From Oceanicola sp. 22II-s10i (GTDB lineage Bacteria > Pseudomonadota > Alphaproteobacteria > Rhodobacterales > Rhodobacteraceae), in assembly GCF_002210105.1 (NCBI RefSeq), contig NZ_AQQU01000002.1, positions 1 through 64,000 on the forward strand: DNA of 64,000 bases, in the 5' to 3' direction. A program made the position numbers and the translations under genes. The stretch's first letter is position 1. Every line of letters starts with the position of its first letter. Under the pieces are notes generated by a model that worked only from the letters and a program-made list of their open reading frames with translations, was not told the DNA's origin and ran no database searches. Below are positions 15,386-30,138 of this stretch, piece by piece.

Positions 15386-15412
15386 TTACCGGGCAGGCCG
15401 CCGGGCCTGACG

Positions 15413-15427
15413 GCCCCCGCCGGGGGC
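15413..15427 (+). terminator. Short GC hairpin ending the transporter-racemase operon
   Basis: GCCCCC (15413-15418), loop GCC, GGGGGC (15422-15427). It lies 28 bases after the racemase stop and immediately before the PHO-box repeats. A weak T-run (TGTCAT) follows. Confidence 0.5.
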
Positions 15428-15459
15428 TGTCATCAAACTTTCGGATAAGTGTCACGAAA
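15427..15459 (+). promoter_or_regulatory. PHO box: three 11-bp direct repeats before phnC
   Basis: CTGTCATCAAA (15427-15437), CTTTCGGATAA (15438-15448) and GTGTCACGAAA (15449-15459) are three contiguous 11-bp units. They fit the PhoB recognition pattern of a 7-base CTGTCAT-like core followed by an AT-rich tetranucleotide. The box ends 49 bases before the phnC start. This places phnCDE under phosphate-starvation control by PhoB, the known mode for phn operons. No footprint is available, so activity is inferred. Confidence 0.7.
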
Positions 15460-15508
15460 GGGTAACCGTCCCCCCGTTTAAGCCCACCAAAACGTGGTGG
15501 GGACATTG

Positions 15509-16333
15509 ATGCTCGTAGTCGAAGAGCTGACCAAGACCTTCGGGAAGAATACGGCCGTGGACCGGGTGAGCTTCACCGTGGACCGGCCGCTGATGATCGG
15601 GATCATCGGGCGCTCGGGTGCGGGGAAATCGACCTTCCTGCGGATGATGAACCGGCTGACCGACGCCTCGTCGGGTCGCCTGATGTTCGACGGCCGCGAT
15701 GTCCTGACCCTGAAGGGCCGCGACCGGCGCGACTGGCAGTCCGACTGCGCGATGATCTTCCAGCAGTTCAACCTCGTCCCCCGTATGGACGTGGTGTCGA
15801 ACGTGCTGCACGGCACGCTTGGCCGCCGGTCGACCTTGCCGACGCTGTTCAACCTGTTTCCCCGCGCGGACATTCACAAGGCGATCGACATCCTCGACCG
15901 CCTCGGCATCGCCGCCCATGCCGCCAAGCGCGCCGAGGCGCTGTCGGGCGGTCAGCAGCAACGCGTCGCCATCGCGCGGGCGCTGATGCAGGACCCGCGC
16001 GTGATCCTCGCGGACGAACCGATCGCCAGCCTCGACCCGATGAACGCCCAGACCGTGATGGAGGCGCTGCGCCGCATCCACGAAGAGGACGGGCGCATGG
16101 TCATCGCGAACCTGCACACCCTCGATACCGCGCGGCGCTACTGCGACCGGATCATCGGTATGCGCGACGGGCGGGTCGTGTTCGACGGCACGCCCGGACA
16201 ACTGACCACCGGCGTCGCCCGCGACATCTACGGCGCCGGGGCGGACTTTTCCGAAGCCGCCACCTCGACCGAGATCGGACCGCTCGAAACCCCTGCGCAG
16301 GCCGCGCGGCGGGCCGCCGAAGCGACCGTCTGA
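15509..16333 (+). CDS. phnC: Phosphonate ABC transporter ATP-binding protein PhnC
   Basis: A 274-residue ATPase with Walker [25 protein letters not shown] signature, Walker [13 protein letters not shown] and an H-loop in [16 protein letters not shown], the last being typical of PhnC. ATG 15509 is chosen over GTG 15494/15497 because [13 protein letters not shown] is the normal PhnC start and GTGGGGAC sits just upstream. First gene of phnC-phnD-phnE-phnE2, with a PHO box in front. It energises uptake of phosphonates (and often phosphite or phosphate esters). Confidence 0.95.
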
Positions 16334-16395
16334 GACCCCGTTCAATCCACCCGCCTGCGACCAAGGGACCGCAGGCTCAACACCCGGAGACGACC

Positions 16396-17301
16396 ATGAA
16401 AAAACTGCTCGCAGCCGCTCTGGCCACCACCGCGCTCGTCAGCGCCGCCGGTGCCCAGGAGATCAAGGAATTCAACATCGGCCTGCTCGGCGGCGAAAAC
16501 GCCCAGGACCGTCTGAACTCGAACGAATGCCTCCGCGCCTATGCCGAGGAAGCGCTCGGCGTGCCGGTCAAGCTGTTCGCCCCCGCCGACTACAACGGCG
16601 TGATCCAGGGCCTGCTCGGCGGCTCGCTCGACATGGCGTGGCTCGGCTCGTCCGGCTACGCGGCGACCTTCCTGCAGAACCCCGACGCGGTCGAGCCGGT
16701 GCTGGTCAAGGCGAACCTCGACGGCTCCTACACCTACCACTCCATCGGCTTCGCCCGTAAGGATAGCGGCATCACGTCGCTGGAGGACGTGAAGGGCAAG
16801 AAATTCGGCTTCGGCGACCCGAACTCCACCTCCGGTTTCCTGATCCCCTCGGTCGAGATCCCGCAGCTGACCGGCGCGACCATGGAGTCCGGCGACTACT
16901 TCGGCGAGGTCGTATTCACCGGCGGCCACGAACAGACCATCGTCGCGGTCACCAACGGCGACATCGACGCCGGCGTCACCTGGGCCGACGGCATGGGCAA
17001 CTGGGAAGACGGCTACAACTCGGGCGCGCTGCGCAAGGCCGTGGACGCGGGGCTGGTCGACATGAACGATCTGGTCGAGATCTGGCGCTCCAAGCCGATC
17101 CCGGAAGGCCCGGTCGTGCTGAAGAAATCCCTGCCGGACGAGGTAAAGGCCAAGATGACGGCCCTCGTTGGCGATCTGAACGAAACCGACCCCGACTGCG
17201 CCTATGGCGTGGCGGCGGGCGAGACCGCCGGTTTCGTGCCGATCGACCATTCCTACTACGAGTCGATCATCGAAGTGCGCCGCCAGAAGTCCGGCAGCTA
17301 A
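16396..17301 (+). CDS. phnD: Phosphonate-binding periplasmic protein PhnD
   Basis: A 301-residue protein with a Sec signal peptide (MKKLLAAALATTALVSAAGA, cleavage near residue 20) and the PhnD-type binding fold. The YNGVIQGLLGGSLDMAWLGSSGY and FGDPNSTSGFL blocks form the phosphonate pocket (their Ser/Thr residues hold the phosphonate oxygens in the family). The sequence continues DAGVTW to the EGPVVLKKSLP region. CCGGAGACGACC precedes the ATG. An inverted repeat after the stop probably stabilises this high-abundance message. Confidence 0.95.
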   Translation: MKKLLAAALATTALVSAAGAQEIKEFNIGLLGGENAQDRLNSNECLRAYAEEALGVPVKLFAPADYNGVIQGLLGGSLDMAWLGSSGYAATFLQNPDAVEPVLVKANLDGSYTYHSIGFARKDSGITSLEDVKGKKFGFGDPNSTSGFLIPSVEIPQLTGATMESGDYFGEVVFTGGHEQTIVAVTNGDIDAGVTWADGMGNWEDGYNSGALRKAVDAGLVDMNDLVEIWRSKPIPEGPVVLKKSLPDEVKAKMTALVGDLNETDPDCAYGVAAGETAGFVPIDHSYYESIIEVRRQKSGS

Positions 17302-17317
17302 GCTTTCGACATCCTTC

Positions 17318-17345
17318 GGGGCCCTGCCATCGCTGGCGGGGTCCC
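17318..17345 (+). terminator. Hairpin between phnD and phnE (attenuator)
   Basis: Arms 17318-17328 (GGGGCCCTGCC) and 17335-17345 (GGCGGGGTCCC) pair over 11 bp with two G-U pairs and a 6-base loop, followed by TTTG. Its position between binding protein and permease suggests partial termination or 3'-end protection of phnD mRNA. Confidence 0.55.
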
Positions 17346-17364
17346 TTTGCCATCCGGGGGACAG

Positions 17365-18216
17365 ATGAGCACCACGACCGTCGACATCCGCGACGCCTAT
17401 TTCGACCTCGTGCGCCGCAGGCGGCTCTATGGCGGTCTGATCCTGCTGATCCTCGTCGTCCTGCTGGTCTCGGGCTTTGGCGTCGCCAATGACCGCAACG
17501 CCGGCGGCTTCCTGCCGGGCCTGCCGCAGGTGCTCGACTTTCCAGCCGACGTTATCGCCGAGGCGTGGGAGCGGCGGGCGGAACTGCCCGGCCATCTGGT
17601 GAAGTTCTTCCCCGCGCTGATCGAGACGATCAACATTGCCGCCGTCTCGACCCTGATCGGCGGGCTGATCGCCGTGGTGCTGTCGACGCTGTCGACCCGT
17701 GGCCTTGCCCGATGGCCACGCCTGATCCCGGTCTTCCGCCGGACGATGGACCTGATGCGCGCGGTGCCCGAGATCGTGATCGCGCTGGTCCTGATCTTTG
17801 TCCTTGGCGGCGGGCCGGTGCCTGCGGCCATCGCCATCGCCTTCCACACCTCCGGCGCGCTCGGCAAGCTCTTCTCCGAGGTCAACGAGAACGCCGACCT
17901 CAAGCCGCTCGAGGGCCTCGCCTCGGTCGGTGCGAACTGGTCCCAGCGGATCGCCATCGGGCTGATCCCGCAGGTCGCGCCGAACTGGCTGTCCTACGCG
18001 CTGCTGCGTTTCGAGATCAACATCCGCGCCAGCGCCATCCTCGGCTTCGTCGGTGCGGGCGGGATCGGGTACGAGCTGAAGAACGCAATCTCTTGGGGGC
18101 AGGGGCAGTTCGGACAGGCCGCCGCGATCTTCCTGCTGCTGTTCCTGACCATCGTGGCCTTCGACCAGCTGTCGAGCGCCGTGCGCCACCGCCTGACCCA
18201 CGGAGCGAAAGCATGA
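17365..18216 (+). CDS. phnE: Phosphonate ABC transporter permease PhnE (first copy)
   Basis: A 283-residue permease with about six membrane segments. The cytoplasmic loop ENADLKPLEGLASVGANWSQ carries the EGLxSxGAN variant of the EAA motif typical of PhnE. ATG 17365 (GGGGGAC upstream) is preferred over the in-frame upstream start at 17347. Its stop overlaps the start of the second permease by four bases (ATGA), so the two form a heterodimeric channel with PhnC. Confidence 0.93.
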   Translation: MSTTTVDIRDAYFDLVRRRRLYGGLILLILVVLLVSGFGVANDRNAGGFLPGLPQVLDFPADVIAEAWERRAELPGHLVKFFPALIETINIAAVSTLIGGLIAVVLSTLSTRGLARWPRLIPVFRRTMDLMRAVPEIVIALVLIFVLGGGPVPAAIAIAFHTSGALGKLFSEVNENADLKPLEGLASVGANWSQRIAIGLIPQVAPNWLSYALLRFEINIRASAILGFVGAGGIGYELKNAISWGQGQFGQAAAIFLLLFLTIVAFDQLSSAVRHRLTHGAKA

Positions 18217-19517
18217 CCGACGCCGCCCTTTATGCACAGGCCGACCGGCTGATCGCCCGCAAGCGGCTGATCGCATTCGCGCTGCCGGTCCTCGTGCTGG
18301 CCTACCTGACCTATGCCTTCTTCGCCTTCGACATCGCGGGCCTCGCGCAGCGGGCGCGGATGGACAATGCCGTGACGCTGATCTCGGACACCTACAGCTA
18401 CAAGACCCATGTCGAACGCTCGAACCGCACCGGCGGCATCGAGGTCGCGGTCGAGGGCGAGCGCAAGGGGACCTACGACGCGACGAACTACCCGTCCTGG
18501 GTGACGGTCGGGGACGACAGCGCGCGGATCGTGCTGGACGACGGCGGCGTGGTCGAGATCGACGGCGACACGACCCGCTACGACATTCCGGGCTACGGCG
18601 CGATCACCGCCTCGGTCGGCACCTCGGGGATCGAGGTGGACCGCGATCCCGCGACCCTGCCGGACTGGATGTCCTATTCGAACACCCGCCTGACCATCAA
18701 GACCGACGCCGCCCGCGTCTCGCTGACCCGCGCCCGGACCGAGGTCTTCGTCTACGACTTCGGGTGGGAGCTGTTCTGGTTCACGCTCGACAGCCCCTAT
18801 TACGGGCATTCCGTGTCGCAGGTGCTGTTCGGCGACCGGATCGACCCCGCGCGGTCCAATATCGCGGGCGCATGGCACGATTTCTGGAACAACCCGATCT
18901 GGCGCCATGGTGACACCGCCTGGGCGCTGTTCGAGACGATGCTGATGGCCTTCCTCGGCACCGTCGGCGCGGCGCTGGTGGCGCTGCCGCTGGCGTTCCT
19001 CGCGGCCCGGAACTTCGCCCCGCTGATGCTGCTGCGGCTGGCGATGCGGCGGGTGTTCGACCTGTTCCGGGGGATCGACGGGCTGATCTGGACGATCCTG
19101 CTGTCCCGCGCCTTCGGCCCCGGCCCGCTGACCGGGTCGCTGGCGATCCTGCTGACCGACACCGGGTCCTTCGGCAAGCTCTTCTCCGAGGCGCTGGAGA
19201 ACGTGGACGACAAGCAGATCGAGGGGCTCGCCTCGACCGGGGCCAAGCCGGTGCAACGCTATCGCTTTGGCGTCATCCCGCAGATCACGCCGGTGCTGCT
19301 GTCACAGGTGCTTTATTTCCTCGAATCGAACACAAGGTCGGCCACGATCATCGGCGCGATCACCGGGGGCGGCATCGGGCTCTTGCTCACGCAGGCGATC
19401 ATCACGCAGAAGGACTGGGAAGAGGTGAGCTATTACATCATCCTCATCGTCCTGATGGTGATGCTGATGGACAGCCTGTCGGGCTGGCTGCGGCGCAAGC
19501 TGATCAAGGGCGACTGA
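18213..19517 (+). CDS. phnE2: Phosphonate ABC transporter permease PhnE, large second copy
   Basis: A 434-residue permease, about 150 residues longer than the first. TM1 lies near residues 20-42. Residues about 45-205 then form a polar insert rich in beta-strand-like sequence (VEVAVEGERKGTYDATNYP region), expected in the periplasm. The normal permease core follows with the EGLASTGAKPVQ loop. It overlaps phnE by four bases. This long form is common in Rhodobacterales phn operons. The insert may help dock PhnD, but no domain was recognised in it. Confidence 0.92.
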   Translation: MTDAALYAQADRLIARKRLIAFALPVLVLAYLTYAFFAFDIAGLAQRARMDNAVTLISDTYSYKTHVERSNRTGGIEVAVEGERKGTYDATNYPSWVTVGDDSARIVLDDGGVVEIDGDTTRYDIPGYGAITASVGTSGIEVDRDPATLPDWMSYSNTRLTIKTDAARVSLTRARTEVFVYDFGWELFWFTLDSPYYGHSVSQVLFGDRIDPARSNIAGAWHDFWNNPIWRHGDTAWALFETMLMAFLGTVGAALVALPLAFLAARNFAPLMLLRLAMRRVFDLFRGIDGLIWTILLSRAFGPGPLTGSLAILLTDTGSFGKLFSEALENVDDKQIEGLASTGAKPVQRYRFGVIPQITPVLLSQVLYFLESNTRSATIIGAITGGGIGLLLTQAIITQKDWEEVSYYIILIVLMVMLMDSLSGWLRRKLIKGD

Positions 19518-19540
19518 GGCACAGCCGCAAGGACCGCCAG

Positions 19541-20158
19541 ATGGCCAGACTGAGCCCGAACGAACCGTTCCTGCACGACGACGTGGTGATCGTGAACACG
19601 ACCTTCGGGCGCTATTGCGAGGTCGGGCGCGGATCGCGGGTGCTGAATTCGGAATTCGGCGACTACGCCTATTGCGACCAGCGGGCGGACATCGCGAACA
19701 CCACGCTGGGCAAGTTCGCCAACGTGGCCGCCGCGACCCGGATCGGGCCGACGGACCATCCCTATGCCAATGCCTCGCTGCACCATTTCCTCTACCGCTC
19801 CGCCTCCTACTGGGACGACGTGGAGGACGATGCCGATTTCTTCGCCCGCCGCGCGGCCCGGCGGACGGTGATCGGGCACGACACATGGATCGGGCATGGC
19901 GCGATCATCAAGCCCGAGGTGACCATCGGCAACGGGGCCATCGTGGCCGCCGGCGCAATGGTGACCAAGGACGTCGCGCCCTACATGATCGTCGCGGGCG
20001 TCCCCGCCGTGCCGTTGCGCGCGCGCTATCCGGACGGCGTGGCCGACCGGATCGAGGCGCTGGCCTGGTGGAACTGGGACCACGACCGCCTGCGCGCGGC
20101 GCTCGATGATTTCCGCACGCTCGACGCCGCGGCCTTCTGCGACAGGTACGAAGCCTAG
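19541..20158 (+). CDS. Phosphonate-operon acetyltransferase, left-handed beta-helix (hexapeptide repeat) family
   Basis: A 205-residue trimeric-type acyltransferase with hexapeptide turns through most of its length (IGHDTWIGHGAIIKPEVTIG, GAIVAAGAMVTKDV), ending in VAGVPAVPLRARYP. It matches the family repeatedly found with phn genes and related to chloramphenicol acetyltransferases of the xenobiotic type. The catalytic His is probably in GPTDHPYAN. It likely acetylates aminoalkylphosphonates or a toxic intermediate, standing in for PhnO. It converges on phnF with a 4-base CTAG overlap of the two stop codons. Confidence 0.85.
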   Translation: MARLSPNEPFLHDDVVIVNTTFGRYCEVGRGSRVLNSEFGDYAYCDQRADIANTTLGKFANVAAATRIGPTDHPYANASLHHFLYRSASYWDDVEDDADFFARRAARRTVIGHDTWIGHGAIIKPEVTIGNGAIVAAGAMVTKDVAPYMIVAGVPAVPLRARYPDGVADRIEALAWWNWDHDRLRAALDDFRTLDAAAFCDRYEA

Positions 20159-20862
20159 TCCGCGAAGATCAGCGTCACCCGGTCGCCCGCGAACCACGTC
20201 GTGCCGAATTCGACCGGCACGCCGTCCGGCGTCTTGTTCAGCCCGGTCGATTTCAGCAGCGGCGCGCCCTCGGCCAGCCGCAGGTGCAGCGCCTGCGTGG
20301 CCGTGGCGGGTTCGGCCTGAAGCCGGGTTTCGGTGCGGACGTAATCCGGCACGCCCGCGCGTTTCAGCGCCTCGGTGACAGAGGGGATTTCGCGCAGCGC
20401 CGCCTCGAAACCCGGCAGTCGGGTGACCGGGAACAGGCTCTCGAACACCGCCAGCGGCGTGCCTTCGGACAGGGACATGCCCTCGGACACCAGCACCTGG
20501 TCGCCGGGGGCGAGGGCCAGAAGTTCCGCCTCGCGCGCGTCGCAGGGGCGGGTCTCCAGCCGGGTCATCCGCCGCTCGGGCGTGCGGCCGGTGGCGCGGA
20601 TGTTCTGGTGGAACCGGACGCGGCGGCCCATCGGGTATTCGGTCGGCGTCGTCGCCACGAACACGCCCGCGCCGCGCCGCGCGTGGAGGATCCCGCGCTC
20701 GGACAGATCCGACAGGCCCCGGCGCACCGTGTGGCGGTTGACGCCGAAGCGCGTGGCCAGTTCCGCCTCGGTCGGGATCTTGTCGCCGGGGCGGTAGTGG
20801 CCGCGGGCGATCTCGTCCTCGAGTGTCGAGACGATGGATTTCCAGACCGGTGTTCGGGCCAT
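20155..20862 (-). CDS. phnF: Phosphonate metabolism regulator PhnF (GntR/HutC family)
   Basis: A 235-residue repressor. Residues 5-70 are a winged helix (LATRFGVNRHTVRRGLSDLSERG) and residues 85-235 a UTRA ligand domain of the HutC type (TRLETRPC, LVSEGMSLSEGTPL, GVPVEFGTTWFAGDRVTL). The gene is divergent from phnG. Its ATG (20862-20860) directly abuts a PHO-box-like repeat, which therefore overlaps its ribosome-binding region, and a long inverted repeat in the gap is a good candidate for its own operator. Confidence 0.92.
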   Translation of the reverse strand: MARTPVWKSIVSTLEDEIARGHYRPGDKIPTEAELATRFGVNRHTVRRGLSDLSERGILHARRGAGVFVATTPTEYPMGRRVRFHQNIRATGRTPERRMTRLETRPCDAREAELLALAPGDQVLVSEGMSLSEGTPLAVFESLFPVTRLPGFEAALREIPSVTEALKRAGVPDYVRTETRLQAEPATATQALHLRLAEGAPLLKSTGLNKTPDGVPVEFGTTWFAGDRVTLIFAD

Positions 20863-20884
20863 CTGTCACCAAACTTTCATGCGC
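20863..20884 (+). promoter_or_regulatory. PHO-box-like direct repeat before phnG
   Basis: CTGTCACCAAA (20863-20873) and CTTTCATGCGC (20874-20884) are two adjacent 11-bp units resembling the first two units of the phnC box. The pair is 81 bases before phnG and touches the phnF start codon on the other strand. Inferred PhoB site. Confidence 0.55.
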
Positions 20885-20920
20885 GCGACGCTTGCCGTCC
20901 TGCGGCGAGTCGCGTAGGAT

Positions 20921-20948
20921 TTGTCTAGTTGTATATATTCCTAGACAA
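20921..20948. promoter_or_regulatory. Candidate PhnF operator (8-bp inverted repeat, 12-bp AT-rich spacer)
   Basis: TTGTCTAG (20921-20928) and CTAGACAA (20941-20948) are perfect inverted repeats around TTGTATATATTC. A further TGTCTAGA copy lies just before the phnG start (around 20960). HutC-type GntR proteins bind inverted repeats with AT centres. The AT-rich core is striking in this GC-rich region. Confidence 0.65.
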
Positions 20949-20965
20949 ATCGGCAAGGTGTCTAG

Positions 20966-21433
20966 ATGCCCATGACCACCACGGACCTATCCCCCGAAAC
21001 AGAGCGCCGGCGCGCGTGGATGTCGCTGCTGGCGACCGCGCCCGAGAGGCTGCTGTCGGACCTGATGTCGGCGCTCGGACCTGCGCCCGAGCATCGGATC
21101 CTGCGCGCGCCCGAGGTGGGCGGCGTCATGGTCCGGGGCAGGGCGGGCGGCACCGGTGCGGCCTTCAACATGGGCGAGATGACGGTGACCCGCTGCGCGC
21201 TGAGGCTGGCGGACGGGACGGTCGGCCATGGCTATGTGCAGGGCCGGTCCCGCGATCACGCGACCCGCGCGGCGCTGGTCGATGCGCTGATGCAGGGGGC
21301 GCAGGCCGAGGAGGTCGAGGCCAAGGTGCTGGGGCCGCTGCGCCGCGCACGGGACGAGAAGCGCGAGGCACGGGCGGCCCGGGCGGCGGCGACGAAGGTG
21401 GAGTTCTTCACCATGGCGCGGGGAGAGGACTGA
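20966..21433 (+). CDS. phnG: C-P lyase subunit PhnG
   Basis: A 155-residue component of the PhnGHIJ core complex, which makes alpha-D-ribose 1-methylphosphonate 5-triphosphate and then cleaves the C-P bond. Recognised by RRAWMSLLATAP at the N-terminus, the GGVMVRGRAGGTGAAFNMGEMTVTRC block and GHGYVQGRSRDHATRAALVDAL. The ATG at 20966 has GCAAGGTG about 14 bases upstream, and ATG 20972 is an alternative. The stop overlaps the phnH start by one base. Confidence 0.95.
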   Translation: MPMTTTDLSPETERRRAWMSLLATAPERLLSDLMSALGPAPEHRILRAPEVGGVMVRGRAGGTGAAFNMGEMTVTRCALRLADGTVGHGYVQGRSRDHATRAALVDALMQGAQAEEVEAKVLGPLRRARDEKREARAARAAATKVEFFTMARGED

Positions 21434-22002
21434 TGGACGACGTGACCCTCGGCGGCGGGTTCGACAACCCGCCGGTACAATCCGCGACGGCCTTCCGCGC
21501 GGCGCTGTCGGCGCTGGCCCGGCCCGGCCGGATCGAGCGGATCGGCGGGGCCGAGGCGCCGTCGCCGGTCTCGCCCGCCGCCGCGACGCTGCTGATGGTG
21601 CTGTGCGATCCCGAGACGCCGGTGCATCTCGCGGGCGCACATGACCGGGCCGAGGTGCGGGAGTGGATCGCCTTCCACATCGGCGCGCCAGTGGTCGGGG
21701 CGGCGGCGGCGCAATTCGCGCTCGGCACATGGGCCGCGCTGTCGCCCGTCGACCGCTTCGGCATCGGCACGCCGGAATATCCCGACCGGTCCGCCACGCT
21801 GATCGTCGAGGTCCCGGACCTCGCCGCAACCGGCGCACGACTGACCGGGCCGGGGATCGAGACCGCCGCCCGCCTGTCGCTGCCCGAAACCGAGGCGTTC
21901 CGCCGGAATGCGCTGCTGTTCCCGCTGGGGCTCGACTTCTTCTTCACCGCGGGCGACCGGATCGCCGGTCTGCCCCGCACGACCCGCGTGGAGGCCGACT
22001 GA
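21433..22002 (+). CDS. phnH: C-P lyase subunit PhnH
   Basis: A 189-residue PhnH, the subunit that forms a dimer in the centre of the C-P lyase core. It shows the family blocks FRAALSALARPG, TLLMVLCDPETPVHL, ALGTWAALSPVDRFGIGTPEYPD and GPGIETAARLSLP. Start and stop overlap phnG and phnI by one base each, so translation is coupled. Confidence 0.95.
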   Translation: MDDVTLGGGFDNPPVQSATAFRAALSALARPGRIERIGGAEAPSPVSPAAATLLMVLCDPETPVHLAGAHDRAEVREWIAFHIGAPVVGAAAAQFALGTWAALSPVDRFGIGTPEYPDRSATLIVEVPDLAATGARLTGPGIETAARLSLPETEAFRRNALLFPLGLDFFFTAGDRIAGLPRTTRVEAD

Positions 22003-23093
22003 TGTATGTCGCGGTGAAAGGCGGCGAGCGCGCCATCGAGAACGCTCATGACTGGCTGGCCGAGGAACGGCGGGGCGACACGTCGGTCGCGGAACTGACC
22101 GTCCCGCAGATCCGCGAACAGCTGGCGCTGGCGGTGAACCGGGTGATGGCCGAGGGCTCGCTCTACGATCCCGACCTCGCCGCGCTGGCGATCAAGCAGT
22201 CGCGTGGCGACCTGATCGAGGCGATCTTCCTGATCCGCGCCTACCGCACCACGCTGCCGCGCCTCGGCGCCTCGGTCCCGGTCGAGACGGACCGCATGGC
22301 TTGCATCCGCCGCGTCTCGGCCACGTTCAAGGACGCGCCGGGGGGGCAGGTCCTGGGACCGACATTCGACTACACGCACCGGCTGCTGGATTTCAAACTG
22401 GCCGCCGAGGGCGAAGTCGCGCCTGCGCCGCAGGCGAAGCCCGAGCGGGCGGATATGCCCCGGATCACCGAGTTTCTGAACAAGGACGGCCTGATCCAGA
22501 CCGAGGCGCGGGACGACACCACGCCGCCCGACATCACCCGGACGCCGATGAAATACCCCGCCGACCGGGCGACCCGGCTGCAGGCGCTGACGCGGGGGGA
22601 CGAGGGCTTTGTCCTCGGGCTCGCCTATTCCACGCAGCGCGGCTACGCCCGCAGCCATGCCTTTGTCGGCGAGCTGCGGATCGGCACCGTGGCGGTCGAG
22701 ATGGAGATCCCCGAGCTGGGCTTCGCCATCGAGATCGGAGAGGTCGAGCTGACCGAATGCGAGACGGTGAACCAGTTCAAGGGCTCCAGGACCGAGCCGC
22801 CGCAATTCACGCGCGGCTATGGCCTGACGTTCGGCCAGACGGAACGCAAGGCGATCTCGATGGCGCTGGTGGACCGGGCCCTGCGTTGGAAAGAGCTTGG
22901 CGAGGACAACGTCGGGGCCCCGGCGCAGGACGAGGAATTCGTGCTGTCCCATGCCGACAACATCCAGGCGACCGGGTTCCTCGAACACATCAAGCTGCCG
23001 CACTACGTCGACTTCCAGTCCGAACTGGAGCTGATCCGCAAGTTGCGCCGCGAGGCGCAGGGCGACAGGGAACATCGCGAGGCGGCGGAATGA
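22002..23093 (+). CDS. phnI: C-P lyase subunit PhnI
   Basis: A 363-residue subunit that catalyses exchange of the adenine of ATP for phosphonate together with PhnGHL. It starts MYVAVKGGERAIENAHDWLA, the standard PhnI opening, and contains RRVSATFKDAPGGQVLGPTFDYTHRLLDF and QGFLEHIKLPHYVDFQSELEL-like C-terminal blocks. It overlaps the phosphonate-epoxide protein start by four bases (ATGA). In most bacteria phnJ follows at once; here it begins about 1.2 kb later. Confidence 0.95.
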   Translation: MYVAVKGGERAIENAHDWLAEERRGDTSVAELTVPQIREQLALAVNRVMAEGSLYDPDLAALAIKQSRGDLIEAIFLIRAYRTTLPRLGASVPVETDRMACIRRVSATFKDAPGGQVLGPTFDYTHRLLDFKLAAEGEVAPAPQAKPERADMPRITEFLNKDGLIQTEARDDTTPPDITRTPMKYPADRATRLQALTRGDEGFVLGLAYSTQRGYARSHAFVGELRIGTVAVEMEIPELGFAIEIGEVELTECETVNQFKGSRTEPPQFTRGYGLTFGQTERKAISMALVDRALRWKELGEDNVGAPAQDEEFVLSHADNIQATGFLEHIKLPHYVDFQSELELIRKLRREAQGDREHREAAE

Positions 23094-23503
23094 CCCTCGG
23101 GCTGTCGCATGTCACGCTGATCGTCTCGGACCTCGACCGGACTCAGGGGATGCTGGAACGGGTGTTCGAGGCGCGCTGCACTTATGCAAGCGACGAGACG
23201 CGCTTTTCCCTGTCCGACGAACGCTTCTTCGACATCGGCGGGGTCTGGGTCGCGACGATGAAGGGCGATCCGCTGCCCGCGCGCAGCTACAACCACATCG
23301 CCTTCCGCATCCGGGAGGACGAGTTCGACGACCGGCAGGCACGGATCGAGGCCGAGGGGCTGGAGATGCTGCCGCCGCGCGCGCGCGTCGAGGGGGAGGG
23401 GCGGTCGCTCTACTTCTACGGCCCCGACAATCACCTCTTCGAGCTGCACACCGGCACGCTGGAAGAACGGCTGAAACGCTATGCGCGGGGGAGGGGCAGA
23501 TGA
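23090..23503 (+). CDS. fosX: FosX-type fosfomycin hydrolase (vicinal oxygen chelate family)
   Basis: A 137-residue glyoxalase-fold metalloenzyme. The three metal ligands fall at H7 (LSHVTL), H69 (YNHIAF) and E118 (LFELHTG), and E44 is present. In FosX these are the manganese ligands and the general base that adds water to the epoxide of fosfomycin. FosA, which uses glutathione, lacks that Glu. It overlaps phnI by four bases and is read with the C-P lyase genes. A FosX relative in a phn cluster is known from Mesorhizobium loti (from memory). It may detoxify or open natural epoxy-phosphonates so that they can be degraded. Confidence 0.85.
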   Translation: MTLGLSHVTLIVSDLDRTQGMLERVFEARCTYASDETRFSLSDERFFDIGGVWVATMKGDPLPARSYNHIAFRIREDEFDDRQARIEAEGLEMLPPRARVEGEGRSLYFYGPDNHLFELHTGTLEERLKRYARGRGR

Positions 23504-24093
23504 CAGAGCGTCCCGTCTATCACGACAAGATGCGCGAGTTGCAGCGCCGGTTCGGGTCCGAGAAGCTGGCGGATCGTCTGGCACAGCACCGCCGCCGCAC
23601 CGCGTTCAGCGACGCCGACCGGGACTTCATCGAGGGGGCGAAGTTCTTCTTCCTCGCCACCAGCGACGCCGAGGGCTTTCCCGACTGTTCCTACAAGGGC
23701 GGGCTGCCGGGCTATGTCCAGGCGACCGGGCCGGGCAGCCTGTCCTTCCCCTCGCTCGACGGGAACGGGATGTATCGCAGCCTCGGCAACATCGTCGCCA
23801 ATCCGCGTGTCGGGCTGCTGTTCATCGACATGGAGAGCCCGCGCCGCCTGCGGGTCAACGGGCGGGCCCGGATCGACTTCGACGATCCCCGGCAGGCCAC
23901 GATCCCCGGTGCGGAACTGATGGTGCATGTGGACGAGCTGAGCATCTTCACCAACTGCCCGCGCTACATCCACACGGGCGAAAAGGTCTCCGACTACATC
24001 GACCGGGGCGACGGCAACGCAAAGGTGCCGGACTGGAAGACATGGCCCGAGTTCTCGGACGTGCTGCCGGGCAAAGGGGGCGGAGATGACTAG
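23500..24093 (+). CDS. PNPOx-like FMN-binding split-barrel protein
   Basis: A 197-residue protein of the pyridoxamine 5'-phosphate oxidase-like flavin reductase fold. It has FLATSDAEGFPDCSYKGGLPGYV, LSFPSLDGNGMYRSLGNI and NPRVGLLFIDM, then INGRARIDF-like and TNCPRYIHTGE segments typical of MSMEG-like/YwrF-type FMN proteins. It overlaps fosX by four bases (ATGA), so it belongs to the phn transcript. Its role in phosphonate metabolism is not known; it may reduce or oxidise an intermediate or supply reduced flavin. Confidence 0.75.
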   Translation: MTERPVYHDKMRELQRRFGSEKLADRLAQHRRRTAFSDADRDFIEGAKFFFLATSDAEGFPDCSYKGGLPGYVQATGPGSLSFPSLDGNGMYRSLGNIVANPRVGLLFIDMESPRRLRVNGRARIDFDDPRQATIPGAELMVHVDELSIFTNCPRYIHTGEKVSDYIDRGDGNAKVPDWKTWPEFSDVLPGKGGGDD

Positions 24094-24100
24094 CCCAGCC

Positions 24101-24265
24101 TCACGGCCGGTCGGCGTGGCTGTCCGCGCCGCCCCGGTTCTCGCCGCCGTCGCGTTCCAGCGGCGGGGTGGCTCCGTCGCCGCCCGGCGTCCCGCCGAGC
24201 GCGCGTTTCAGGATGATCGCGACCGCCGTGACGACCGCGATCAGGGCGATGACTGTCCATTCCAT
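24101..24265 (-). CDS. Small single-pass membrane protein, antisense within the phn operon
   Basis: A 54-residue protein read against the phn genes. ATG 24265-24263 is preceded by GGAAGGAAGTGAC, a strong ribosome-binding site, so I prefer it over the longer frame from 24307. Residues 3-19 (WTVIALIAVVTAVAIIL) form one membrane helix, followed by KR and a Gly/Asp/Glu-rich soluble tail. It lies between the PNPOx-like gene (7 bases away, convergent) and phnJ (40 bases away, divergent). Family unknown. Confidence 0.5.
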   Translation of the reverse strand: MEWTVIALIAVVTAVAIILKRALGGTPGGDGATPPLERDGGENRGGADSHADRP

Positions 24266-24305
24266 TGTCACTTCCTTCCGATCTCTGCCCGCCGCGAGGC
24301 CCGAC

Positions 24306-25172
24306 ATGTCTGACTACAACTTCGCCTATCTCGACGAACAGACCAAGCGGATGATCCGCCGGGCGATACTCAAGGGGATCGCGATCCCCGGTTACCAAGT
24401 GCCCTTCGCCAGCCGCGAGATGCCCATGCCCTACGGCTGGGGCACCGGCGGCGTGCAGGTGACGGCGGCCTGCCTGACGCCCGACGACCGGCTCAAGGTC
24501 ATCGACCAGGGCGCGGACGACACGACGAACGCGGTGTCCATCCGCAAGTTCTTCGAACGCACGGCCGAGGTGGCGACCACCACGGTGACGTCCGAAGCCA
24601 GCGTCATCCAGACCCGCCACCGCATACCCGAAGAGGCGCTGAGCGAGGATCAGATCCTCGTCTACCAGGTGCCGATCCCGGAGCCGCTGCGGTTCCTCGA
24701 ACCGCGCGAGACCGAGACCCGCAAGATGCACGCGCTCGAGGAATACGGGCTGATGCACGTCAAGCTTTACGAGGACATAGCCCGGCACGGCCACATCGCC
24801 ACGTCCTATGCCTATCCGGTGAAGGTCGAGGGGCGATATGTCATGGACCCCAGCCCGATCCCCAAGTTCGACAACCCGAAGCTGGAGATGGCGGCGATCC
24901 AGCTGTTCGGCGCGGGGCGGGAACAGCGGATCTACGCGATCCCGCCCTACACGCAGGTTGTCTCACTCGATTTCGAGGATCATCCCTTCGAGGCGACGAA
25001 GGCCCCCGCGCCCTGCGATCTCTGCGGGGCCGGGGACAGCTATCTGGACGAGGTCATCACCGATGATGAGGGCGGGCGGATGTTCGTCTGTTCCGACACC
25101 GATTTCTGCACCACCCGCCAGGCGGCGGGCCATCGCGGGCGGCTGAGCCCGATCGAGGAGGCAACGGCATGA
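24306..25172 (+). CDS. phnJ: C-P lyase radical-SAM subunit PhnJ
   Basis: A 288-residue catalytic subunit that breaks the carbon-phosphorus bond with a 4Fe-4S cluster and S-adenosylmethionine. The cluster cysteines follow the PhnJ pattern Cx2Cx21Cx5C at C237, C240, C262 and C268. The glycine used as radical carrier in E. coli (G32) corresponds to G29 in AIPGYQVPF. Most of the chain is near-identical to known PhnJ (MPMPYGWGTGG, KVIDQGADDTTNAVSIR, HALEEYG). Unlike most phn genes here its start is not coupled to the gene before it. Confidence 0.97.
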   Translation: MSDYNFAYLDEQTKRMIRRAILKGIAIPGYQVPFASREMPMPYGWGTGGVQVTAACLTPDDRLKVIDQGADDTTNAVSIRKFFERTAEVATTTVTSEASVIQTRHRIPEEALSEDQILVYQVPIPEPLRFLEPRETETRKMHALEEYGLMHVKLYEDIARHGHIATSYAYPVKVEGRYVMDPSPIPKFDNPKLEMAAIQLFGAGREQRIYAIPPYTQVVSLDFEDHPFEATKAPAPCDLCGAGDSYLDEVITDDEGGRMFVCSDTDFCTTRQAAGHRGRLSPIEEATA

Positions 25173-25939
25173 CACCGCTTCTGTCCGTGCGCGGGCTGCG
25201 CAAGACCTATGGCGGCCGGATCGGCTGCGAGGACGTGAGCTTTGACCTCTATCCCGGCGAAGTCATGGGGATTGTCGGCGAAAGCGGGTCCGGCAAGTCG
25301 ACGCTACTGAACTGCATGGCGGGGCATCTGGCGCCCGATGCGGGCGAGGTTCTGTTCGACACCCGTGACCGGGGGCCGGTCGACACGCTCAGGATGAGCG
25401 AGCCGGAGCGGCGGATGCTGGGCCGCACCGACTGGGCCTTTGTCCACCAGAACGCGCGGGACGGGCTGCGAATGTCGGTATCCGCCGGCGGCAACGTGGG
25501 CGAGCGGCTGATGGCGGTCGGCGCGCGGCATTACGGCGACATCCGTGGCAAGGCGCTCGACTGGCTGGACCGGGTCGAGATCGCGGCGGACCGGGTGGAC
25601 GACCGGCCCTCGGCCTTTTCCGGCGGGATGCAGCAGCGGCTGCAGATCGCCCGCAACCTCGTCACCGGGCCGCGGCTGGTGTTCATGGACGAACCGACCG
25701 GCGGGCTCGACGTGTCGGTGCAGGCGCGCCTGCTGGACCTGCTGCGCGGGCTGGTGCGCGAGATGGGGCTGTCGGCGATCATCGTGACCCATGACCTCGC
25801 CGTCGTCCGGCTTCTGGCCGACCGCATCATGGTGATGAAGGGCGGGCGCGTGGTCGAGGCGGGGCTGACCGATCAGGTTCTGGACGACCCGCAACACGCC
25901 TATTCGCAGCTTCTCGTTTCTTCCGTCCTGCAGGTGTAA
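25169..25939 (+). CDS. phnK: C-P lyase ATP-binding protein PhnK
   Basis: A 256-residue ABC-type ATPase that docks on the PhnJ face of the C-P lyase core; it is not a transporter subunit. Walker A GESGSGKS, signature [16 protein letters not shown], Walker [15 protein letters not shown] and the H-loop VTHDLAVVR are all intact. Residues [13 protein letters not shown] and the overall match to oligopeptide-type ATPases are usual for PhnK. It overlaps phnJ by four bases. Confidence 0.95.
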
Positions 25940-25943
25940 GCCC

Positions 25944-26627
25944 ATGATCCGGATCGAAAACCTCTCGAAATCCTTCACCCTGCACAACCAAGGCGGCGCG
26001 GTGATCCCGGTCATGGCGGGGGCGCATCTGACCGTGGAGCCCGGCGAATGCGTCGCCCTGACCGGCAATTCCGGGGCGGGGAAATCCACGCTGATGCGGA
26101 TGATCTACGGCAACTACCTCGCCGCTGCCGGGTCCATCCGGGTGGGCGATCTGGACGTCGTCACCGCCGAGCCGCGCGAGATCATCGCGCTCCGGCGCGA
26201 GACGCTGGGATATGTCTCGCAATTCCTGCGGGTCGTGCCCCGCGTCCCGGCGCTCGACGTGGTGGCCGAGCCGCTGCTGGCCATCGGCACCGACCGGACG
26301 GCGGCGCAGGCGCGGGCGCGCGATCTGCTGGCGCGGCTGAACATCCCCGAACGGCTGTGGTCGCTGTCGCCCACGACCTTCTCGGGCGGCGAACAGCAGC
26401 GCGTGAACATCGCGCGAGGCTTCGCCCATGCCTATCCGGCGCTTCTGCTGGACGAACCGACCGCCTCGCTCGACGCCACGAACCGCGAGGTAGTGCTGAG
26501 CCTGATCGAAGAGGCCAAGGCGCGCGGCGCGGCGATCGTGGGGATCTTCCACGATGCCGAAGCGCGGGAACGGGTGGCGGACCGGGTGATCGACGTCTCG
26601 GCCTTCACCCCGAGGCGGGCGGCGTGA
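25944..26627 (+). CDS. phnL: C-P lyase ATP-binding protein PhnL
   Basis: A 227-residue ABC-type ATPase needed with PhnGHI for ribosylation of phosphonate. Walker [23 protein letters not shown] signature, Walker [12 protein letters not shown] and the switch region [18 protein letters not shown] are present, the last characteristic of PhnL. It starts four bases after phnK and overlaps phnN by three bases (GTGA). Confidence 0.95.
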
Positions 26628-27169
26628 GGGGCGGGCGGCTCTTCACCGTCGTCGGGCCCTCCGGCGCGGGCAAGGACACGCTGATCGAGGCGGTGCGCAG
26701 GCGGCGCCCCGATCTGGTCATCGTGCGCCGCGCCATCACCCGAGGGGCCGAGAAGGGCGGCGAGCCGTTCGAGCCGGTGACCGAACCGGAATTCACCGCC
26801 CGCGCCATGGCCGGAGGGTTCGCGATCCACTGGCGGGCGCATGGCCTGAGCTACGGCATCCCCGCCCGGATCGACCGGGATCTGGCCGAGGGGCGGGACG
26901 TGCTGTTCAACGGATCGCGCGCGGTGCTGCCGCAGGTGGCGGCGCGCTATCCCGAACTGACGGTGCTGCTGATCGACGCCCCGCGCGAGGTGCTGGCCGC
27001 CCGGCTGGCGGCGCGCAATCGCGAGGATCCGGCGGATATCGCGGCGCGGCTGGCGCGGTCGGATTACGCGCTGCCGGAGGGGCTGAACGTAGTGCGGATC
27101 GACAATGGCGGGACGCTGGAGACGGCGGTCGAGGCATGCCTCGCCGCGCTTCAGCCGGTCAGCGCATGA
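26624..27169 (+). CDS. phnN: Ribose 1,5-bisphosphate phosphokinase PhnN
   Basis: A 181-residue guanylate-kinase-like enzyme that converts ribose 1,5-bisphosphate to PRPP, the last step of the C-P lyase path. P-loop [10 protein letters not shown] is near the N-terminus, followed by RRAITR, the [12 protein letters not shown] block and [13 protein letters not shown], all typical of PhnN. The start GTG (26624) overlaps the phnL stop. The 3' end overlaps the convergent 2H-phosphoesterase gene by 19 bases. Confidence 0.93.
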
Positions 27170-27840
27170 CGGGAGACGAGGTGAAACCGACCCTCCGCAT
27201 CCTCGCCGAACAGGCAGAGGTCCGGGACAACGAACGGCCCCTCGGTCATCGGTGCGAGGATCGGGGTCAGCACCTGTGCGACCGCGTCGGCCTCCTCGGC
27301 GGGCAACCGGCCGGACAGGGTCAGGTGGAAACGGAAGTCTTCCATCACGTGGGGATAGCCCCATGTCATCAGGTTGACCTCCTGACTGGGGCTGAGGCCC
27401 CTGGCCCGGCGGCGGTTGAGTTCCGCCTCGGGCGCGGGCGCCCGGTGATGGTCGAGCGCACGGACGGCCTCGGCGGCCAGATGCGCCAGCGCGGTGGTGT
27501 CGCCGGTCGGGACCAGGGCGAGGAAGCCGCCGAGGCGGTGCAGTTCCAGCCCGTCGCAATGCACCGGGGCGATTCCGCTGCACAGCGCGTCGAGGTCCGA
27601 GGCCAGCGCCTCGGGCGAGGCGGAGGCGTTCAGGCGGAAGGGCGGCTTGATCGTGCCGTGAAAGCCGTATTTGCGCGGTGTCGCCGTGATCTCGGCCACC
27701 GGGCGCGGCAGGCCGGGCAGGTCGGGATGGGGCACCTCTGCGCCGGCCACCGGATCCCAGCCGAGCCACGCGGCGGCGAACTCGGCGAGAGGCCCCGGAG
27801 GGCGCGCGTAATAGACGGCGTAGCGGCTGAAGTCGGTCAT
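27151..27840 (-). CDS. Phosphonate-operon DUF1045 protein, 2H-phosphoesterase fold
   Basis: A 229-residue protein of the family that regularly accompanies phn genes in alphaproteobacteria. It has the two HxT motifs of 2H phosphoesterases, FHGTIKPPF and FHLTLSGRL. ATG 27840-27838 (MTDFSRYAVYYA) is chosen; the frame extends upstream to 27867. No PhnP (the metallo-lactamase-type 5-phosphoribosyl 1,2-cyclic phosphate phosphodiesterase) is in the window, so this enzyme may open the cyclic phosphate instead. That is inference from the active-site type and context. It converges on phnN and is divergent from phnM. Confidence 0.85.
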   Translation of the reverse strand: MTDFSRYAVYYARPPGPLAEFAAAWLGWDPVAGAEVPHPDLPGLPRPVAEITATPRKYGFHGTIKPPFRLNASASPEALASDLDALCSGIAPVHCDGLELHRLGGFLALVPTGDTTALAHLAAEAVRALDHHRAPAPEAELNRRRARGLSPSQEVNLMTWGYPHVMEDFRFHLTLSGRLPAEEADAVAQVLTPILAPMTEGPFVVPDLCLFGEDAEGRFHLVSRHALTG

Positions 27841-27860
27841 CTGCGCCCGGTATCCCAGTA

Positions 27861-27880
27861 GTGTCACACGACCGTGACAC
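27861..27880. promoter_or_regulatory. PHO-like inverted repeat between DUF1045 gene and phnM
   Basis: GTGTCAC (27861-27867) and GTGACAC (27874-27880) form a perfect 7-bp inverted repeat with a 6-base spacer. Each arm matches the GTGTCAC core of the third unit of the phnC PHO box, one per strand, and a CTTTCAT core continues at 27880-27886. It could serve PhoB on both divergent promoters. Confidence 0.45.
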
Positions 27881-27919
27881 TTTCATGCAAGTGAGGCGGC
27901 CTTCAAGGCAGGTAAAGCA

Positions 27920-29059
27920 ATGCAGGACATGATTTTCACCAATGCACGCATCGTTCTCGAGGACGAGGTGATCGAGGGCACCATCCACGTGGCGGATGGC
28001 CGGATCGCCGCGATCTCGCAGGGCGGCAGCGCGGTGCCCGGTGCCGTGGATTTCGGCGGCGACATGCTGATCCCCGGCCTGATCGAACTGCACACCGACA
28101 ATATCGAGCGGCATATCGAGCCGCGCCCCAAGGTCGACTGGCCCCATGCCGCCGCGATCATGGCGCATGACGGGGAACTTGCGTCGGTCGGGATCACCAC
28201 GGTCTTCGACGCCATGCGCGTCGGATCGCTGCCGAGCGCGGACACCGGCTATCGCAAATATGCCCGCCCGCTGTCGTCCGAGCTGATGGAGCTGAGGGCG
28301 AACGGCGCGCTCCGGATCAACCACTACCTGCACCTGCGGGCCGAGGTCTGTTCCGAGACGCTGGAGGAGGAGCTGGCGGAGTTCGGCCCCGAGGACCGGG
28401 TGCGGCTGGTGTCGCTGATGGACCACACGCCGGGCCAGCGGCAATTCCGCGATATCTCCAAGCTCAAGGACTACGTCCAGCGCAAGCGAGGGCTGAACGA
28501 CGAACAGTTCGCGCGCCACGTCGACAACCTGCGGACCCTGCGCGAGACCTACGGCGACCGGCACGAGGTGGTCGCGGTGCGCGAGGCCAAGCGGTTCGGC
28601 GCGGTGCTGGCCTCGCATGACGACACCACCTCGGCCCATGTGGCGCAGTCGGCGCGGCACGGCTGCACGGTGGCCGAATTCCCGACGACCGAGGAGGCGG
28701 CGGCGGCCTGCAAGGCCAGCGGCATCGCGGTGATGATGGGCGCGCCCAACCTGATCCGGGGCGGATCGCATTCGGGCAACGTCGCGGCGCATGACCTGGC
28801 CGAGGCGGGGCTGCTGGACATCATGTCGTCGGACTACGTGCCGTCGTCGCTGATGACGTCGGCGTTCCTGCTGGCGGACCTGTGGCAGGACGTCCCGCGC
28901 GCGGTGGCGACGGTGACATCGGCCCCGGCGGATGCGGTCGGGTTGACGGACCGGGGGCGGATCGCGCAGGGGTTGCATGCCGACCTCGTGAGGATCGGGC
29001 GGATCGGCGGCTCGCCCGTCGTGCGGGGTGTCTGGTGCCACGGACGGCAGGTCGGCTGA
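27920..29059 (+). CDS. phnM: Alpha-D-ribose 1-methylphosphonate 5-triphosphate diphosphatase PhnM
   Basis: A 379-residue amidohydrolase-superfamily enzyme that removes pyrophosphate from the ribosylated phosphonate to give the PhnJ substrate. Motifs: LIELHTDNIERHIEPRPKV (HxD metal site), LASHDDTT, VAEFPTTEEAA, GAPNLIRGGSHSGN and SSDYVPSSLM. GGCAGGTAAAG precedes the ATG. It has its own promoter region shared with the divergent DUF1045 gene, unlike phnM genes embedded in a single operon. Confidence 0.95.
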   Translation: MQDMIFTNARIVLEDEVIEGTIHVADGRIAAISQGGSAVPGAVDFGGDMLIPGLIELHTDNIERHIEPRPKVDWPHAAAIMAHDGELASVGITTVFDAMRVGSLPSADTGYRKYARPLSSELMELRANGALRINHYLHLRAEVCSETLEEELAEFGPEDRVRLVSLMDHTPGQRQFRDISKLKDYVQRKRGLNDEQFARHVDNLRTLRETYGDRHEVVAVREAKRFGAVLASHDDTTSAHVAQSARHGCTVAEFPTTEEAAAACKASGIAVMMGAPNLIRGGSHSGNVAAHDLAEAGLLDIMSSDYVPSSLMTSAFLLADLWQDVPRAVATVTSAPADAVGLTDRGRIAQGLHADLVRIGRIGGSPVVRGVWCHGRQVG

Positions 29060-29499
29060 GCCATCGGAGACCATGCCTGTGCGGATGTCCGCCGCCCGGC
29101 GGGTTGTGCCTGTTTCGTGGGCGGAGGCGCGTAGGGTATTGGGCTGGAACGGAAACCCTGGAGCCCTGGGCCTCCGGCGGCGGGTGCTGAGGCTTTCAGT
29201 GCGAAAGCAGCGCAAAGCCTCGGCGCCGGATCGCGACATGCCATGCGGAAAACTGCCTGCTCCGATCTATGGGGATTGGGGTGCCGCAGCGTAAGGCGTA
29301 AGATCACTCAACTCTCACGGGAACGGGAACTGTCGTGACCCCGGACGAGTTGGAAGGATGACGTCCGCGCTGCTGCGGTGCCAACCGGAAACGTTGCCAT
29401 GACCGAAGGTGTTTTCTGTCTCTGCCTGATCGCCGCATTCGCCGCGGCATCCGTCTTCTGAAGTCCGACTTTACGCGGGGCCCGGCGCCGTGCCGGGCC
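29060..29499. other. Intergenic region after phnM
   Basis: Some 440 bases without a convincing gene. Several open frames exist on both strands but none has a good start signal or a recognisable product. A 20-codon frame (29399-29461, MTEGVFCLCLIAAFAAASVF) is hydrophobic but too short to judge. The right end has a strong hairpin that fits the end of the LuxR-type gene. Confidence 0.5.
29479..29499 (-). terminator. Stem-loop after the LuxR-type regulator
   Basis: GGCCCGGC (29479-29486) and GCCGGGCC (29492-29499) are perfectly complementary with a 5-base loop. The hairpin touches the stop codon of the minus-strand regulator gene. No T-run is visible. Confidence 0.5.
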
Positions 29500-30138
29500 T
29501 CAGTCGTCGCGCCGCAGTCCCATCCGCGCCGCGTGCCATGCGGCTTCGGCGCGCGATGAGATGCCGAGCTTGCGATAGACCGCCTTGATGTAGCCCGCCA
29601 CCGTGGTTTCCGCGATGCCCAGATCACGCGCCACCTCGGCGTTGCGCAACCCGCGTCCGATCAGCGCCAGCACCTCGGTCTCGCGATCGGTCAGGTCCTG
29701 ATCCTCGCCCGCGGCGGGACCGGTGTAGCGGAAATGCTCCATGATCCGCCGCGCGATGCTGGGCGACAGGGCAGGGACCCCGTCGCCGATCTGCTGCAAC
29801 TGCCGGGTCAGGACGGCGGCCGGGTTTTCCTTGAGCAGGTAGCCGTCCGCCCCCGCCGACAGCGCGGCGACCACCGTCGCGTCGTCGCCCATCACGGTGG
29901 TGACGACGCAGAGCGTGTCGCGGTGATCGTCCCGGATCGCCCGCAGCAGGTCCAGCCCCGACCCGTCCGGCAACCCGAGGTCGATCAGCGCCAGATCGTA
30001 GTCGTTCCGCAGGAACCCGCGCGCCTGCCGCAGCAGTCCGGCCGTGTCGATCTCGACCGCGCCGAACGCGCCCCGGACCAGATCGGACAACCAGTCCCGC
30101 GTTTCGGTGATGTCCTCGACGATCAGAACCCGCTTCAT
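29500..30138 (-). CDS. LuxR/NarL-type response regulator
   Basis: A 212-residue regulator. The receiver (1-125) has E8-D9 (VLIVEDI), phospho-acceptor D52 in LALIDLGLPDGSGLDLL, T80-type residue in VVTTVMGDD and K103 in YLLKEN. Residues about 145-205 are a LuxR helix-turn-helix (LTDRETEVLALIGRGLRNAEVA, TVAGYIKAVYRKL). ATG 30138-30136 is chosen because MKRVLIVEDI is the normal start. It lies 31 bases after the sensor kinase gene, forming a two-component pair. Targets unknown. Confidence 0.92.
   Translation of the reverse strand: MKRVLIVEDITETRDWLSDLVRGAFGAVEIDTAGLLRQARGFLRNDYDLALIDLGLPDGSGLDLLRAIRDDHRDTLCVVTTVMGDDATVVAALSAGADGYLLKENPAAVLTRQLQQIGDGVPALSPSIARRIMEHFRYTGPAAGEDQDLTDRETEVLALIGRGLRNAEVARDLGIAETTVAGYIKAVYRKLGISSRAEAAWHAARMGLRRDD

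Follow-up and report, generated by a model that had tools for sequence, protein, structure and literature searches.

A fosX gene overlapping phnI within the C-P lyase locus of Oceanicola sp. 22II-s10i

The closest described systems are the fosX genes of rhizobia and Listeria. According to excerpts of three papers, fosX of Mesorhizobium loti is located within the phn operon (PMC6122793, PMC9304900, PMC12413358), and its product exhibits low, promiscuous activity (PMC6122793). Deletion of fosX from strains of M. japonicum and M. ciceri lowered fosfomycin resistance, as stated in an excerpt of PMC9973854, and a Rhizobium huakuii strain is cited in a passage of PMC8928225 as degrading fosfomycin (McGrath 1998). 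The FosX of Listeria monocytogenes is described, in an excerpt of PMC6122793, as a core trait of Listeria conferring fosfomycin resistance, with a C-terminal segment that includes L128 and Y131. For the FosX family in general, the hydration step is known and depends on an essential glutamate base (PMC4790336, in excerpt). In Escherichia coli, the phosphonate importers were proposed as entry routes for fosfomycin; insertions expressing phnG-P were advantageous in its presence, and phnG-P expression was proposed to inactivate it (PMC7566553, in excerpt).

The presence of FosX inside a phn operon is, consequently, already known from rhizobia, and the locus considered here is a variant of that arrangement. 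It was found in the window, which is the whole stretch of 64,000 nucleotides analyzed from Oceanicola sp. 22II-s10i (contig NZ_AQQU01000002.1).

Organization of the phn locus and the predicted FosX

The genes follow the order phnC-D-E-E, a hexapeptide transferase gene, phnF, phnG-H-I, fosX, a PNPOx-like gene, an antisense ORF, phnJ-K-L-N, a DUF1045 gene and phnM; phnF, the antisense ORF and the DUF1045 gene are on the minus strand and the others on the plus strand. The importer is encoded by phnC (ATPase, 15494..16333, start codon uncertain), phnD (phosphonate binding protein, 16396..17301) and the permease genes phnE1 (17365..18216) and phnE2 (18213..19517). These are followed by the gene for a phosphonate-locus hexapeptide transferase (19541..20158; TIGR03308, 299.6 bits at a cut-off of 201.65) and by phnF for a GntR-family regulator (20155..20862; TIGR02325, 196.4 bits at a cut-off of 156.8). 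The C-P lyase core includes phnG (20966..21433; PF06754, TIGR03293), phnH (21433..22002; PF05845, TIGR03292), phnI (22002..23093; PF05861, 548.1 bits) and phnJ, encoding C-P lyase (24306..25172; PF06007, 478 bits, with no NCBIfam match). Further downstream are phnK (25169..25939), phnL (25944..26627), phnN (26633..27169; TIGR02322, 198.9 bits at a cut-off of 156, start codon not fixed), the gene for a DUF1045 protein (27151..27867; PF06299, TIGR03223) and phnM (27920..29059). The DUF1045 protein is a putative cyclic phosphodiesterase, a role proposed in an excerpt of PMC8235418. Pfam or NCBIfam profiles support phnG, phnH, phnI, phnJ, phnF and phnN; the ORFs of phnK, phnL, phnM and phnCDE lie in the expected places and were named by reading and position, without a profile.

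Between phnI and phnJ, 1212 bases are occupied by fosX (23090..23503, plus strand), a gene for a PNPOx-fold protein of 197 amino acids, putatively FMN-binding (23500..24093, plus strand), and an antisense ORF of 54 codons with one N-terminal hydrophobic span (24101..24265, minus strand). An overlap of 4 bases was found at phnI/fosX and again at fosX/PNPOx (23500 versus 23503), and translation of these genes may be coupled. The earlier note, which had placed these three genes in about 1.2 kb between phnI and phnJ and had the flavin gene overlapping fosX, described the arrangement accurately. No Rfam family reached its gathering score in positions 15000-30000, and no sigma-70-like promoter was found across 20860-25200. 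In the latter interval, two sites resembling terminators were found on the minus strand, each within phnI, versus 1.4 expected.

The fosX product (137 amino acids) is a predicted metal-dependent epoxyphosphonate hydrolase. It scored 190.4 bits against NCBIfam NF000222, above the cut-off of 170. Among the solved chains, it is closest to 1r9c (61% identity, 81/132), which we take to be the M. loti FosX, the structure record being named glutathione transferase. Another solved chain, 2p7k, is presumably the L. monocytogenes FosX (its record lists a glyoxalase family protein) and is 58% identical (76/130). Residues H7, H69, E118 and E44 are invariant across 13 aligned FosX sequences and are the same in both solved chains; we assume the first three to be the metal ligands and E44 to be the general base. 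The statement that this FosX retains all metal ligands and the base E44 was borne out by these alignments. In addition, two residues of the C-terminal segment, L128 and Y131, are shared by the window protein and the Listeria enzyme, whereas 1r9c carries K in place of Y131. Based on these sequence comparisons, activity as a Mn-dependent fosfomycin hydrolase is predicted. The data support an intact fosX gene overlapping phnI inside a C-P lyase locus.

Accessory genes at the phnI-phnJ junction

To describe this junction, we used 100 phnJ loci, namely 20 from the window's genus and the first 80 others of a score-ordered list; two divergent second phnJ copies of the genus (L158 and L159, with a gap of 23 bases) and two further such copies, in G003 and G001, lay outside this sample. 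The phnI-phnJ gap was below 120 bases in 38 loci, 120-299 bases in 17, 300-449 bases in 6 and at least 450 bases in 39. The claim that phnI and phnJ are nearly always adjacent does not hold in this family, since at least 120 bases separate them in 62 of the 100 loci. The split is, then, not special to the window and is commoner in the sample than the unsplit state. For 40 of the 80 non-genus loci, about every second one, wider DNA was taken and the neighboring junctions were compared. Gaps of at least 120 bases occurred at phnI-phnJ in 22/40 loci, versus 0/40 at phnG-phnH, 0/40 at phnH-phnI, 4/40 at phnJ-phnK and 8/39 at phnK-phnL. At the phnI-phnJ junction, extra genes are frequent in this family.

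The contents of the junction vary. Among the 45 loci with a phnI-phnJ gap of at least 300 bases, related HAD hydrolases were found in 25 and a DUF559 cluster in 7, with an eighth DUF559 protein in L139; an EamA protein (L143) and a histidine phosphatase (L236) are single cases. The Pfam check of this cargo covered one HAD hydrolase, two DUF559 proteins and the EamA and histidine phosphatase cases.

The antisense ORF of the window starts 40 bases from the phnJ start, in divergent orientation. It is preceded by AAGGAAG, has a third-position G+C of 0.91, and is likely to be coding, judging from these features. A search of the genus gave no homologue above chance, the best other match having an E-value of 0.011; beyond the genus, the ORF was compared with the loci of this analysis. 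Neither Pfam nor NCBIfam gave a match for it or for two relatives.

Similar ORFs were sought in other loci as antisense frames that comprise 40 or more codons and encode a strongly hydrophobic stretch. Such an ORF was present in 10 of the 26 phnI-phnJ gaps tested, where shuffled sequences lead one to expect about 0.03, and in 7 of the 23 gaps left when L138, L143 and L167, picked for having one, are set aside. No sense-strand membrane ORF was found in the 26 gaps. The two control junctions provided 12 gaps of at least 120 bases (4 at phnJ-phnK and 8 at phnK-phnL), and none of the 12 contained an antisense membrane ORF. A long sense-strand membrane-type ORF of 318-319 amino acids was observed in 4 of these 12 gaps.

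Four of the 27 loci with the order phnI-fosX-phnJ, all from Mesorhizobium (L090, L115, L118 and L130), also carry an antisense membrane ORF between fosX and phnJ. The dN/dS ratio of the antisense frame was 0.13-0.35 in four pairs, formed by three loci from Mesorhizobium and two from the window's genus, and 0.50 and 0.56 in pairs with the more distant L230. A sense ORF as the real gene of the gap was rejected, as in each of these six pairs of relatives the antisense frame had a lower dN/dS than every other open frame. One opposite-strand frame in the three Mesorhizobium pairs gave similar values, lower in one of them (0.23 vs 0.28), but contains 3-5 stop codons. The antisense ORFs of two groups thus display coding-type substitution. 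Since the ORFs of different genera mostly lack a convincing alignment, they may represent a type rather than one family. Among the papers listed by a literature search, none dealt with a small membrane-protein or antisense gene at phnJ, judging from titles and the beginnings of abstracts. We regard the junction bias and the antisense membrane ORFs as the more unusual observations of this locus class.

A broader proposal can be made for C-P lyase operons in both Rhodobacterales and Mesorhizobium, although we consider it rather improbable. The phnI-phnJ junction would be a dedicated accessory slot with a recurrent opposite-strand gene for a single-span membrane protein near the phnJ start. This gene or its transcript would uncouple the production of PhnJ (or PhnJKL) from that of PhnGHI, or would tie the complex or the importer to the membrane, and the sense-strand cargo (FosX, HAD hydrolase, EamA, PNPOx) would widen the substrate range.

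Distribution of fosX and of the PNPOx-like gene

A profile scan of genome contigs yielded 384 confirmed FosX relatives, and the best 80 were taken as the fosX locus set. Counts from this set are not population frequencies, because 20 of them comprise less than 20 kb of DNA and the query alignment included phn-linked members. Linkage to phn genes was found in 28 of the best 80 loci: 27 of them, Gemmobacter included, have the order phnI-fosX-phnJ with a 4-base phnI/fosX overlap in 27/27, and one has the order phnI-phnJ-fosX. A DUF1045 gene without phnI and phnJ was present in 11, and in 41 all three were absent from the examined DNA. In 6 of the 80 loci, fosX is followed by an EamA transporter gene, and all six are without phnI and phnJ in the examined DNA; no paper pairing FosX with EamA was found in a literature search. 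An M. huakuii genome (L115) is among the loci with the order phnI-fosX-phnJ, and two annotated Shinella plasmids share it. The Mesorhizobium loci with fosX between phnI and phnJ, that is, the M. loti-type operon, share the 4-base overlap with the window but, unlike it, do not contain the PNPOx gene. Pseudooceanicola atlanticus (L056), which probably belongs to the same genus as the window strain, has a fosX in its phn operon that is 79% identical by tblastn. As in the window, an antisense membrane ORF is present in its phnI-phnJ gap (L146), but its fosX comes after phnJ, and the next gene encodes an alpha/beta hydrolase and not a PNPOx protein.

In a sample of 295 genomes of the family, FosX (E-value of 1e-20 or better) was found in 11 and PhnJ in 146. 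In the window's genus, FosX was present in 2 of 22 genomes and PhnJ in 20 of 22. The earlier note had made its reading depend on a link between fosX and phn genes in close relatives. This link stood in the genus, where both fosX copies are within phn loci, and in the window's Rhodobacterales group of the FosX tree, where 11 of 12 are phn- or DUF1045-linked. It did not stand in the family sample, where fosX adjoins phnJ in two of the 11 fosX-bearing genomes, the window and G278, among the matches listed. In G311 and G316, fosX lies near a DUF1045 gene and neither genome has a PhnJ match.

The FosX tree was built from 83 sequences and 139 columns with a midpoint root, and many of its forks are open. 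The window FosX groups with Rhodobacterales FosX and not with the rhizobial (M. loti-type) ones; its group of 12 (support 99/95) comprises 8 DUF1045-linked members, 3 phn-linked members and 1 with neither, and is separate from the 32 unlinked, free-standing FosX that form another group (support 97/91). On the opposite side of the midpoint are 39 mostly rhizobial sequences, of which 28 are phn-linked, 8 unlinked and 3 DUF1045-linked. The phn label changes 8 times on the tree, versus a mean of 25.1 after shuffling. The occurrence of fosX at phnI-phnJ in two parts of the tree is compatible both with repeated gain and with loss of one old state.

The PNPOx-like protein scored 52.3 bits against PF01243 (cut-off of 28.1) and 82.6 bits, below the cut-off of 170, against TIGR04025, the model of MSMEG_1061-type PPOX flavoproteins. 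Its family profile reaches 2htd with an E-value of 2.9e-7. A single-sequence AlphaFold model had a mean pLDDT of 35.5 and was discarded. Relatives (E-value of 1e-25 or better) were found in 18 other genomes of the 295-genome sample, none of which contains fosX. In two genomes, such a relative and phnJ share a contig, 42 and 127 kb apart among the PhnJ matches listed, a set outside of which lie those of G277 and the second of G065. Nine plasmid records also contain relatives; of the six taken for inspection, one is unannotated and the other five have unrelated neighbours. A scan of viral contigs confirmed no relative. A survey of the best 80 fosX loci, including the 28 phn-linked ones, gave no PNPOx gene even at an E-value of 1e-3, and a conserved fosX-PNPOx cassette was rejected on this basis. 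Most likely, the PNPOx gene was added locally to the phnI-phnJ junction as a passenger.

Proposed role of FosX in the C-P lyase operon

Based on the above results, we suggest, with a probability of about 0.65, that this C-P lyase operon carries its own FosX, which would hydrate imported epoxyphosphonates and thereby both protect the cell and supply C-P lyase. Epoxyphosphonates such as fosfomycin would enter via the phosphonate importer. FosX would then add water to the epoxide, using a metal ion and E44 as the base, and the resulting diol would no longer alkylate MurA. The diol would serve PhnGHIJKL as a source of phosphorus, so that detoxification and feeding would be accomplished in one step. 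This reading follows from the match to the FosX model, the conserved active-site residues, the recurrence of phnI-fosX-phnJ with an identical overlap and the grouping of the window FosX with phn- or DUF1045-linked ones. The Mesorhizobium fosX deletions and the fosfomycin-degrading R. huakuii strain, both known to us from excerpts (PMC9973854, PMC8928225), point in the same direction, as do the importer entry routes and the inactivation by phnG-P expression proposed for E. coli (PMC7566553) and the two Shinella plasmids. It is weakened by the 41 unlinked loci among the best 80, by the two genomes with fosX near a DUF1045 gene and no PhnJ match, and by the mixture of linked and unlinked FosX on the rhizobial side of the tree. 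Moreover, E. coli C-P lyase alone, without FosX, was proposed to act on fosfomycin in the excerpt of PMC7566553, and the weak, promiscuous M. loti enzyme, as described in the excerpt cited above, suggests that the natural substrate is perhaps not fosfomycin. As the same junction carries unrelated genes in other genomes, position alone is no proof of a shared pathway.

It is also possible, though we find it doubtful, that FosX only protects against fosfomycin entering via the phosphonate importer and that its product is not consumed. The entry routes proposed for E. coli (PMC7566553, in excerpt), the reduced resistance of Mesorhizobium after fosX loss (PMC9973854, in excerpt) and the six fosX-EamA loci are consistent with protection alone, but fosX is repeatedly placed between genes for C-P lyase subunits, and fosfomycin degradation by R. 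huakuii, as cited in the excerpt of PMC8928225, also argues against it. An unlikely alternative is that phnI-phnJ is a permissive insertion point, with fosX, the PNPOx gene and the antisense gene as cargo that has no functional tie to C-P lyase. The frequency of gaps at this junction and the variety of their fillers, from HAD hydrolases and DUF559 proteins to EamA and histidine phosphatase, agree with it. Against simple permissiveness, fosX is located at this one junction in two parts of its tree, whether by gain or by loss, and further cargo recurs as well (the HAD hydrolase in 25 loci, for instance), which suggests selection.

The earlier note had further proposed that FosX and the flavoprotein form a two-step route preparing epoxyphosphonates for C-P lyase. 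Both genes are intact and overlap by 4 bases, which speaks for such a route, but the pairing is not repeated in any other fosX locus of the best 80, so that the route is unsupported. With the PNPOx relatives of the family occurring in genomes without fosX and those of the annotated plasmids beside unrelated genes (five of the nine records), we consider it highly improbable.

Beyond the rhizobia, for which a fosX inside a C-P lyase operon was already known, Rhodobacterales have this arrangement too, with fosX at the same junction and its product located elsewhere in the FosX tree. The Rhodobacterales case is in line with a published view that regards enzymes of fosfomycin resistance as relatives of an enzyme of phosphonate operons. 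Furthermore, the results point to a favored site of accessory genes within C-P lyase operons and to antisense genes for small membrane proteins beside phnJ, and both can be tested in environmental bacteria.

EamA transporter genes beside fosX and between phnI and phnJ

A gene for an EamA-family transporter was found directly 3' of fosX, the predicted epoxyphosphonate hydrolase gene, in six of the 80 fosX loci, which represent the best 80 of 384 confirmed relatives. In these loci (L057, L059, L060, L061, L065 and L077), fosX followed by the EamA gene occupies positions ~10001-11265, and DUF1045, a putative cyclic phosphodiesterase, is encoded close by. Based on their coordinates, L057 and L061 correspond to genomes G316 and G311, respectively, and the PhnJ search of the family sample gave no match in either of these genomes.

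An EamA transporter gene was also found inside the phnI-phnJ gap of L143, a locus from the same genus as the window, where fosX is absent. Its product shared 62-72% identity with two fosX-linked EamA transporters. The same gap additionally contains an antisense membrane ORF.

Other genes in phn gaps

A HAD-family hydrolase of ~200 aa recurs between phnI and phnJ (25 of the 45 sampled loci with a gap of at least 300 bases, e.g., L142 and L171), and in 23 of these 25 loci the longest HAD ORF begins at a 4-base overlap with phnI. Among the eight phnK-phnL gaps of at least 120 bases, four (L256, L262, L279 and L287), each of ~1 kb, contain an ORF on the sense strand that encodes 318-319 aa, including a hydrophobic span.

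fosX in other surroundings

On a Leptolyngbya boryana plasmid (L053), fosX (10001-10408) lies 3' of arsH in an arsenic-resistance region, and no C-P lyase genes are annotated in the stretch around it. The record entitled Bacillus subtilis SK6B4 (L063) carries a phn locus with a FosX nearly identical to those of Pseudochrobactrum and other Brucellaceae; this record is possibly a contamination or mislabelled. In Pseudooceanicola atlanticus, an alpha/beta hydrolase gene (L056, 10414-11073) is located between fosX and phnK.
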